This document shows positions 18,287 through 21,010 of a stretch of 64,000 nt of DNA, piece by piece. Position 1 is the first letter of the stretch. The number at the start of each line of letters is the position of its first letter. Both the position numbers and the translations under genes were made by a program. The stretch spans positions 3,457,001 to 3,521,000 of the forward strand of contig CP007053.1 of NCBI GenBank assembly GCA_000242935.3. The letters are read 5' to 3'. This stretch comes from Opitutaceae bacterium TAV5 (GTDB lineage Bacteria; Verrucomicrobiota; Verrucomicrobiia; Opitutales; Opitutaceae). Under the pieces are notes generated by a model that was given only the letters and a program-made list of their open reading frames with translations, was not told where the DNA came from and made no database searches.

Positions 18287-19132
18287 ATGGACCGACTCAT
18301 GAATCCCTCCGGCTTTGTTTCCCTCATGCCGATTCTCGTGGGCGCGCTGCTGTCGCTGGCTGCCACCGGCGTGGCGTTCCCCGCCTCTGCCGCGGAGGCT
18401 GCCACCGCGAGTGGACGTCGCAAGGCGCTGGCGCCTTCCCCGGACGCGCCGGCCGTGGTCGGGCTGCGCATGCGTTCGGGAGAGAGCGAGAGCCACGCCG
18501 TCACGCAGCTTTTCGCGGACGGATTCCTGGTCCTTCCGCCAGCGCGCCTGCCTGCCGGCGAGGCGACAGGATCTGACCCGGTGCCTGCCGGGCGTTTTGT
18601 ACCGTGGGGAAGCGTTGATCTGCCGTGGCTGCTCGCGGAGGGCCCGCCGCTCAAGCCCGGCCGGGCCATTTCGGTTTACGGAGGCGAGAAACTCGTACGC
18701 CGCGCCGTCTGGCTGCAAGTGCGCCGTGACGATTATGTTTCTGCCACGGATACCGCCCTTCGCATCGAGCTGCGCCGCACGACCGGCGGCGCGGGCGACG
18801 TGCCGGTGGAGCTGGAGTGCATCTTTCTGCATGCGGAAGGCGCGACGTTCAAGGTGGCCGTCCGGCGTGTCGACTTGCTGGCGTTGCCGCTCGGCGCATC
18901 CACTGCCGTGTGGTGCGCACCGAAGGCGCCCCTGCTGGACCGCCGTCTGGTCATCCCGCCCGCCTCGCGCGCCGGCAAGCGTCCCCTGCACTGGGTGGTG
19001 CGCATCCGCAGCCACCGCGAAGTCATCGCGACGGCCGGCTCCGACACCGCGATCGTCAACTGGGTGGACAACGCCCACCTGCCCGATCCGCGTTCCCCCT
19101 TCGGCGGCACGTGGAAAAACTACGGCCAGTGA
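18287..19132 (+). CDS. Exported protein of unknown function
   Basis: A 281-residue protein, not recognised. A signal peptide covers about residues 1-36 (LVGALLSLAATGVAFPASAA). The mature part is predicted beta-rich (RAISVYGGEKLVRRAVWLQV, later VPVELECIFLHAEGATF) with no Cys pairs or catalytic motif seen, except one Cys in AVWCAPK. It ends just 3 bases before the LigB-type ligase gene, so the two are almost certainly co-transcribed; both appear exported. An alternative start at 18299 (MNPSGF) would shorten the leader by four residues. A link to extracellular or incoming DNA would follow from the partner but is inference. Confidence 0.7.
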   Translation: MDRLMNPSGFVSLMPILVGALLSLAATGVAFPASAAEAATASGRRKALAPSPDAPAVVGLRMRSGESESHAVTQLFADGFLVLPPARLPAGEATGSDPVPAGRFVPWGSVDLPWLLAEGPPLKPGRAISVYGGEKLVRRAVWLQVRRDDYVSATDTALRIELRRTTGGAGDVPVELECIFLHAEGATFKVAVRRVDLLALPLGASTAVWCAPKAPLLDRRLVIPPASRAGKRPLHWVVRIRSHREVIATAGSDTAIVNWVDNAHLPDPRSPFGGTWKNYGQ

Positions 19133-19135
19133 TTT

Positions 19136-21010
19136 ATGAACCGCCTCATACCCGCCATCGTTCTCCTGCTCGGATGCCTCGCTCCGGCCGCTCCCGGAGC
19201 CGGACCGGCGTCCACCGTCCGGGCCGGTGGTGACGCGGCGTCGACCGACACCGAAGCCCGCGCCCGTATCGATTTTCTTCGGACGGAGATCGCCCGTCAC
19301 GACGATCTTTATTACCGGAAGGCCGCTCCGGAAATCAGCGACGAGGCCTACGACCGCCTCAAGCGCGAACTGGCCGCGCTCGAACGCCGGTTTCCCGATG
19401 CGGCGGCAGCGGCAGGCGGCGGGGCGCCGGCCGGCGAAACCGTGGGGGACGATCGCGTGCCGGAGGCGAGGTTCGCTCCGTGGCGGCACCGCGCGCCGAT
19501 GCCGGGTCTGGAAAAGGCCTACGACGAAGCCACGCTGCGGCGCTTTCTCGGGCGCGTCGCCGGAGTGGCCGGCGAGCACGCGCTTGCCTGCACGGTCGAG
19601 CCCAAGATCGACGGCGTCGCGATCAGTCTCGTCTATGAAAACGGCCGGCTCGTCCGCGCCGCCACACGCGGCAACGGCCTGATCGGCGACGACGTCACCG
19701 CCAACGTTCTCGCCATCCCGGGCATTCCGCCTGTCCTCCGCTCCGGAGACGGAGAGGCGCCGCCCGCCCGGGTCGAGGTGCGCGGCGAAATCTGCATCAC
19801 GCCCGGCGACTTTGCCGAACTCAACCGGCAGCGCATCGCCGCCGGTCTCGCCCCGCATGCCAGTCCGCGCAACCTCGCGGCCGGCTCGATCAAGCTCCGC
19901 GATCCCGCCGAAGTGGCCCGCCGGCGGCTGACGCTCGTGTGCTATGGCATCGGTGCGATGGAGCCGGCGCCGGTTGTCGAAACCCAGTCGGCGCTTCTCG
20001 CCCGGCTGGGGGTCTGGGGATTGCCGGTGATCGGCCACTGGCAACTCGCGCTCACGCCGGACGAGATCCTCGCCGCCGTGCGACGCCTGGGGCAGGCTCG
20101 CACCCGCGGAGAGCTTCCCTGGCCGACCGACGGCGTGGTGGTCAAGGTGGACGCGTTCGCCGTCCGGACCCTCCTCGGCGCCACCGGTTTCGCTCCGCGC
20201 TGGGCCATTGCCTGCAAGTTCGGTACGACCCGCGTCGAAACCCGGCTCCGTGCCATCACGCTGCAAATCGGCCGGACCGGCGTGCTCACGCCCGTGGCGG
20301 AGCTGGAGCCGGTCGCGGTCGGCGGCGCGACCATCGCCCGGGCCACGCTGCACAATGCCGACGAAATCGCCCGCCTCGACCTGCGCGTCGGCGACACGGT
20401 TGTCCTCGAACGAGCGGGCGACGTGATTCCGCGCATCGTCGAGGTCGTCCCCGAGGCCCGTCCGGAGAAAACGGTTCCGTATCTGTTTCCGGATACATGT
20501 CCGTTTTCCGGAGACAGGCTCGAAAGAGTCGCCGGCGAGGCCGCCTGGCGGTGTCCGTCGTCGGCATGTCCGGGGCGGCTTCGCCAGCGGATCGCCTGGT
20601 ATGCGGGCAAACCCTGCATGGACATCCCCGGCCTCGGCGCGGCGCGTATCGACAGGCTGGTGGCATCGGGGCGGGTGGCATCGCCCGCCGATCTGTACCG
20701 GCTGACAGCCGCCGATCTCGGTTCCGGAAAAAGCGCGGAGAAACTCCTCCTGGCGATCGCCGCCAGCAAGCGGCGTCCGCTCGATCGCCTCGTGCTGGCG
20801 CTTTCGATCCCGCAAGTCGGCCCGGCCGCCGCCCGTGCTCTGGTGGAACGCTTCGACACGCTGGATGCGCTGATATCGGCCAGCCCGGCTGCTCTTGCCA
20901 GCGCCAACGGTGTCGGCGATTCCTCGGCCGCCGCGATCCATTCATGGCTCCACGATCCGGTGAATCGCGCCCTGATGGACGACCTGCGGCAGCTTGGTGT
21001 GGGCCCCTGA
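19136..21010 (+). CDS. NAD-dependent DNA ligase, LigB-like, with export signal and no BRCT
   Basis: A 624-residue NAD-dependent ligase. Domain Ia is present ([15 protein letters not shown]), as are the adenylation motif PKIDG with catalytic Lys157, RGNGLIGDD, the [10 protein letters not shown] motif, the OB fold ([16 protein letters not shown]) and helix-hairpin-helix repeats ([13 protein letters not shown]). Three features set it apart from replicative LigA. The first 23 residues are a signal peptide or lipoprotein-type leader (LLLGC, Cys14). The zinc finger has Cys455, Cys473 and Cys478, but Ser458 in place of the second Cys. The protein ends where the BRCT domain would begin. E. coli LigB shows the same three traits, so this is probably a LigB-type accessory ligase. 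A standard ligA should exist elsewhere in the genome. Confidence 0.88.

Follow-up and report, generated by a model that had tools for sequence, protein, structure and literature searches.

A putatively exported NAD+-dependent DNA ligase in Opitutaceae bacterium TAV5 and leadered second ligases in related genomes

Gene content of the locus

The window (the whole 64,000-nucleotide stretch of DNA analyzed here) lies on the 7,317,842-bp chromosome of Opitutaceae bacterium TAV5, which was obtained from a termite hindgut (PMC4358385); the second contig of the genome is 99,831 bp in length. Two adjacent open reading frames (ORFs) of 281 and 624 amino acids (aa) were found on the forward strand where a first-pass annotation had placed them, and codon usage scores supported the annotated frame in both. 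Features are listed below by position in the window.

18287 to 19132, plus strand: orphan gene, 281 aa, whose product starts with a signal-peptide-like leader (about 18287-18391, PASA/AEA); 3 bases separate its stop codon from the ATG of the ligase, and its codon use is coding-like
19136 to 21010, plus strand: putatively exported 624-aa NAD+-dependent DNA ligase without a BRCT domain (ORF, Pfam, NCBIfam, residue table, start-codon scan; export predicted from sequence)
19136 to 19189, plus strand: signal-peptide-like leader of 18 residues (sequence, hydropathy and shuffles, sole start codon), with a likely signal peptidase I site, A-P-A/A, and a marginal lipobox, LLGC
19262 to 19402, plus strand: domain Ia (NMN-binding), residues 43-89 (PF22745), with the equivalents of E. 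coli Y22, D32, Y35, and D36 kept
19466 to 20224, plus strand: adenylation domain, residues 111-363 (PF01653, 237.9 bits)
19604 to 19606, plus strand: catalytic Lys157 codon (EPK-IDG; sequence)
20237 to 20470, plus strand: OB-fold domain, residues 368-445 (PF03120)
20498 to 20572, plus strand: degenerate zinc finger, three Cys and Ser458 (codon 20507-20509) (PF03119 below cut-off; residue table)
20786 to 20974, plus strand: helix-hairpin-helix (HhH) domain, residues 551-613 (PF12826)

Pfam matches in the window ligase comprised Nlig-Ia, adenylation, OB, and HHH_2 domains, with ZBD below threshold; no BRCT domain was found by Pfam, and the reading frame stops after HhH. PF01653 and PF03120 both scored above cut-off, and the lysine of the KxDG motif is K157. 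In E. coli LigA, Tyr22, Asp32, Tyr35, and Asp36 bind NMN, and the corresponding Y, D, Y, and D are all retained in domain Ia of the window ligase (PF22745, residue table). The intact Lys157 and adenylation motifs described in the first-pass annotation were therefore confirmed, with the NMN-pocket residues also in place, and the enzyme is predicted to be active. The zinc site has the order Cys, Ser458, Cys, Cys, with Ser458 at the C411 position; the earlier description of a three-Cys zinc finger with Ser458 and no BRCT was thus borne out by the residue table and Pfam. In several other verrucomicrobial families, LigAs were observed in which most or all four zinc Cys are gone and the active site is kept (L030, L031, L043, and L153).

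Family assignment

The best family score of the window ligase, 572 bits, was against the NCBIfam LigA model (TIGR00575/NF005932), and matches in the PDB to LigA (2owo, 4glx) had E-values of 1e-121 to 1e-122. The domain order Ia-adenylation-OB-Zn-HhH and the active-site residues are common to both proteins. Unlike LigA, the window ligase has a leader and only three zinc Cys, lacks both the four-Cys zinc finger and the C-terminal BRCT domain of a replicative LigA, and is the second NAD ligase of a genome that also encodes a normal LigA. The latter, which the earlier reading had left to be checked, is present as a full-length, BRCT-bearing protein without a leader (G000:C1:3135382-3137409, minus strand; 797-codon frame). 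With this normal LigA present, the window ligase gene is freed from the essential job.

The label “LigB-type” given at first did not hold, and membership in LigB was dropped: the score against the LigB model NF005987 was 187.3 bits, with a cut-off of 498. The LigB proteins of E. coli and other gammaproteobacteria are likewise second NAD+ ligases with a leader, no BRCT domain, and an altered zinc site. The proposed likeness to E. coli LigB therefore stood for the leader and the absence of BRCT, both of which were found in the window ligase, but not for family membership. The zinc site is altered in both, but the window ligase keeps three zinc Cys and LigB has fewer. LigB also forms a separate long branch. 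Lig E, the ATP-dependent exported ligase found in proteobacteria (PMC6144786, PMC10799422), resembles the window ligase as an accessory ligase with a predicted periplasmic leader beside LigA. It uses ATP rather than NAD+ and belongs to another ligase family, and its location is likewise only predicted; the window ligase has no ATP-dependent core, matching NAD+ ligase families and carrying the NMN-binding domain Ia.

N-terminal leader of the window ligase

The leader reached a 10-residue hydropathy maximum of 2.96. When the first 35 residues were shuffled 20,000 times, this value was attained in 232 cases (approximately 1.2%); among 6,031 stretches from the bodies of these ligases, it was attained in 10. 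Hydropathy of this leader alone is moderate evidence, and the case for export is carried by the comparative data given below. After ATG 19136, the next in-frame ATG, GTG, or TTG is codon 103 (GTG 19442), which lies within the domain fold. Because ATG 19136 is the only start before codon 103, the translated ligase carries the leader; a later true start, by which the leader would be lost, was ruled out for these three start codons. The export leader claimed in the first-pass annotation is thus signal-peptide-like in its hydropathy, has a forced start, and recurs in relatives, and by these sequence-based measures the window ligase has a predicted N-terminal signal peptide, as an exported protein would.

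The motif LLLGC places a Cys at residue 14 of the window ligase. Under the PROSITE lipobox rule the lipobox Cys falls at residues 15 to 35, so Cys14 is marginal, and a lipoprotein is possible but without support. A ligase tethered through Cys14 to the inner or outer membrane would account for the lipobox-like LLGC and for LVTAC at a similar position in one relative (L039), but it is decidedly unlikely, given that a lipobox Cys would be expected later than residue 14 and that most relatives have no Cys there and show A-x-A sites.

Leadered second ligases in related genomes

In a survey of 57 related genomes, in which the N termini of second copies were read, two NAD ligases were found in 17. 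One leadered and one leaderless copy were present in 16 of these 17 genomes (G000, G003, G004, G005, G010, G013, G016, G017, G019, G020, G023, G029, G030, G035, G039, and G056), the labels being assigned by eye with the N termini in view and the sequences being related and so not independent observations. Both copies were leaderless in the seventeenth (G033, 7% contamination). Two family genomes found later (G141 and G230) had the same leadered/leaderless pattern. Leadered copies begin 31 to 63 residues ahead of the domain Ia core, whereas the leaderless partner begins near domain Ia. In the leaders, small residues come after the hydrophobic stretch, and basic residues usually come ahead of it. 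Hydropathy maxima in the N-terminal 40 residues were 2.16 to 3.21 in 15 of the 16 leadered copies and -0.68 to 1.09 in 36 leaderless ones; the exception, L055, was read from its first ATG, and its second ATG gives a leader. The letters of the leaders vary among copies, the hydrophobic property is kept, and the genes lie in differing surroundings. The export reading is well supported from these sequences, in that leaders in two-ligase relatives sit on the second ligase alone.

The hydrophobic N terminus might instead be an uncleaved anchor holding the ligase on the cytoplasmic face of the membrane, where it would repair the chromosome or DNA already across the membrane. The NAD+ supply would then stay simple, the window leader is short, and E. 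coli with ligB deleted is sensitive to damage (PMC5507437). Such an arrangement appears unlikely, as many copies have positive charge ahead of the hydrophobic stretch and A-x-A-like sites behind it, an order that is the usual Sec signal layout and would place the C-terminal part outside.

The active-site Lys was retained in all leadered copies and the Tyr/Asp/Tyr/Asp of the NMN pocket in nearly all, so NAD+ use appears to be still selected. Exceptions at the Tyr35 position were two LigB copies, with Phe (L092) and His (L097). The exported copy L055 (G010:C87) has no equivalents of Tyr22/His23 of domain Ia and possibly cannot react with NAD+. BRCT-length tails were found on some exported copies (L024, L039, L041, L042, L045, L046, and L048) and not on others; loss of BRCT is therefore not a defining trait. 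Long branches, variable BRCT and zinc-ligand loss, patchy occurrence, and the loss of part of the NMN pocket in L055 would suit a leader without function, the second ligase being a cytoplasmic paralogue in decay or a backup ligase for repair. That explanation is very unlikely, since active-site residues have been retained across the long branches and chance would hardly put leaders in 16 of the 17 genomes that have two ligases.

Minimal forms and ancestry

A phylum-wide profile search revealed second ligases of approximately 410 to 420 aa in families f29 and f36, which formed one group with the copy of G039 in family f4 (SH-aLRT 97). All five members of this minimal group (L156, L157, L158, L159, and L051, from three other families) have leaders. 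Pfam placed adenylation and OB domains in every one of the five and a weak domain Ia in four of them; zinc, HhH, and BRCT domains were found in none. Like Lig E, these verrucomicrobial ligases are without extra domains, and they look to be for NAD+ what the minimal exported Lig E is for ATP.

In a tree that left out the minimal copies and in which LigB was one long branch, the leadered copies fell together on one side of a branch (support 74/91). When LigB and the minimal copies were included, the leadered copy L038 fell among leaderless ones. Neither a single clade of all exported ligases (p-AU 0.33) nor a single clade of the Opitutaceae-type exported set (p-AU 0.18) was rejected, and the ancestry is uncertain because of the long branches. 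No viral copies of the exported ligase were confirmed in a search.

Upstream gene and neighborhood

The 281-aa upstream gene had no match in Pfam or NCBIfam, and a search of the other 251 genomes of the family turned up no homologue. Searching the 57 genomes with it gave a single weak match (E = 0.0045) to a stretch of L035, mostly in the leader region, and a single-sequence structure model of the protein (pLDDT 39.8) was too poor to judge. Around the relatives' exported ligases (Opitutaceae-type set), no conserved neighbor was found, the only shared genes belonging to common families, for example response regulators and ABC ATPases. No conserved operon partner was thus found, either by sequence (57 or 252 genomes) or by neighborhood.

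The first-pass annotation had taken the adjacent gene as strengthening the case for export. The 3-base spacing and the leaders on both proteins stood, and with them the orphan gene could be imagined as the dedicated partner of the ligase in an exported pair for DNA processing. Functional pairing was not supported, the relatives sharing neither a homologue of the 281-aa protein, and hence no such gene pair, nor any neighbors common to their ligases, and a dedicated partner is the least probable of the alternatives considered here. Cotranscription of the two genes is plausible.

A promoter scan gave no signal above chance. Upstream of the orphan gene lies a perfect 21-bp inverted repeat (window positions 18070-18090 and 18190-18210), the core of which, GCTAAAGAACGCTAAA, occurs in 11 copies in the genome, compared to 0 for the reversed control, and so looks like a dispersed intergenic repeat. 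In two relatives, proteins that are probably exported, of unrelated sequence, are encoded directly downstream of the exported ligase (L062 8267-9046 and L061 7798-8832).

E. coli LigB and the exported-ligase literature

The activity of E. coli LigB is below 1% of that of LigA. A leader was present on every E. coli-type LigB examined, including E. coli LigB itself, with examples in Escherichia, Citrobacter, Enterobacter, and Mangrovibacter and in two further gammaproteobacterial genomes, one of them distant. This leader goes unmentioned in the 2017 LigB paper (PMC5507437), which contains no words that start with any of signal, periplasm, export, leader, or secret. In that study, deletion of ligB lowered E. 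coli biofilm 1.6-fold, ligB expression shifted in biofilms, overexpression of LigB was toxic even with the catalytic Lys replaced, and LigB mutants had hydrogen peroxide and mitomycin C phenotypes that were read by the authors as chromosomal repair (PMC5507437). The biofilm and overexpression data fit an outside role in part; the sensitivity of ligB mutants to peroxide and mitomycin C fits repair inside the cell.

CpxR is an envelope-stress regulator, and EndA is a periplasmic endonuclease. Loss of CpxR increased ligB 3.6-fold and endA 2.4-fold (PMC2731931). Deletion of exported Lig E, the location of which is only predicted, reduced gonococcal biofilm (PMC10799422). In the open-access papers searched, the only exported ligase found described was the ATP-dependent Lig E.

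Interpretation

The directly established features, namely, the gene, its fold, active-site residues, and leader, the recurrence of leaders on second copies only, and the lack of a conserved partner, are probably best explained by an accessory NAD+ ligase that is periplasmic or extracellular and seals nicks outside the inner membrane, the export, activity, substrate, NAD+ source, and role of which we infer. A Sec-type leader would carry the ligase across the inner membrane, and the exported enzyme would seal nicks in double-stranded DNA, in the periplasm or outside the cell, with the replicative LigA remaining cytoplasmic. Its substrate may be environmental or released DNA lying in a biofilm matrix, or else duplex DNA that is being taken up, and NAD+ may be supplied by the same lysed cells or by diffusion through porins. 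Such a ligase would be a counterpart to exported Lig E, with NAD+ in place of ATP.

Counted in favor of export were the forced start, the pattern in two-ligase genomes, the hydropathy split, the varied leaders, the kept residues, the minimal forms, and the leader of LigB; the biofilm effects of ligB and Lig E deletion and the CpxR effect were also counted for a ligase acting outside. Against export, NAD+ is probably scarce outside the cytoplasm, and the peroxide and mitomycin C phenotypes of E. coli LigB mutants count as well. No nuclease, uptake, or matrix gene was found to travel with the ligase. ComEC-like genes were nearly universal in genomes with or without an exported ligase, Endonuclease_NS (PF01223) showed no association with it (8/13 versus 11/24; Fisher P = 0.50), and EndA-type nuclease (PF04231) was rare and likewise not associated. 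Because ComEC and exported nucleases do not separate genomes with the gene from those without it, uptake and matrix roles are indistinguishable here.

The chances appear even that exported NAD+ ligases are a widespread class acting outside the inner membrane, comprising the verrucomicrobial second copies, the minimal forms of approximately 410 aa, and E. coli LigB, which would then be periplasmic and not a backup chromosomal ligase. DNA ligation is usually regarded as cytoplasmic. If an NAD+ ligase is exported, these bacteria would maintain DNA beyond the membrane, whether within a biofilm matrix or in the course of uptake, and NAD+ would have to be available there. The leadered second copies, together with the leader of E. 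coli LigB, suggest DNA repair outside the cytoplasm in some bacteria, and the puzzle of why E. coli retains a weak LigB would become a question of where LigB is located and what part its leader plays in the biofilm phenotype.
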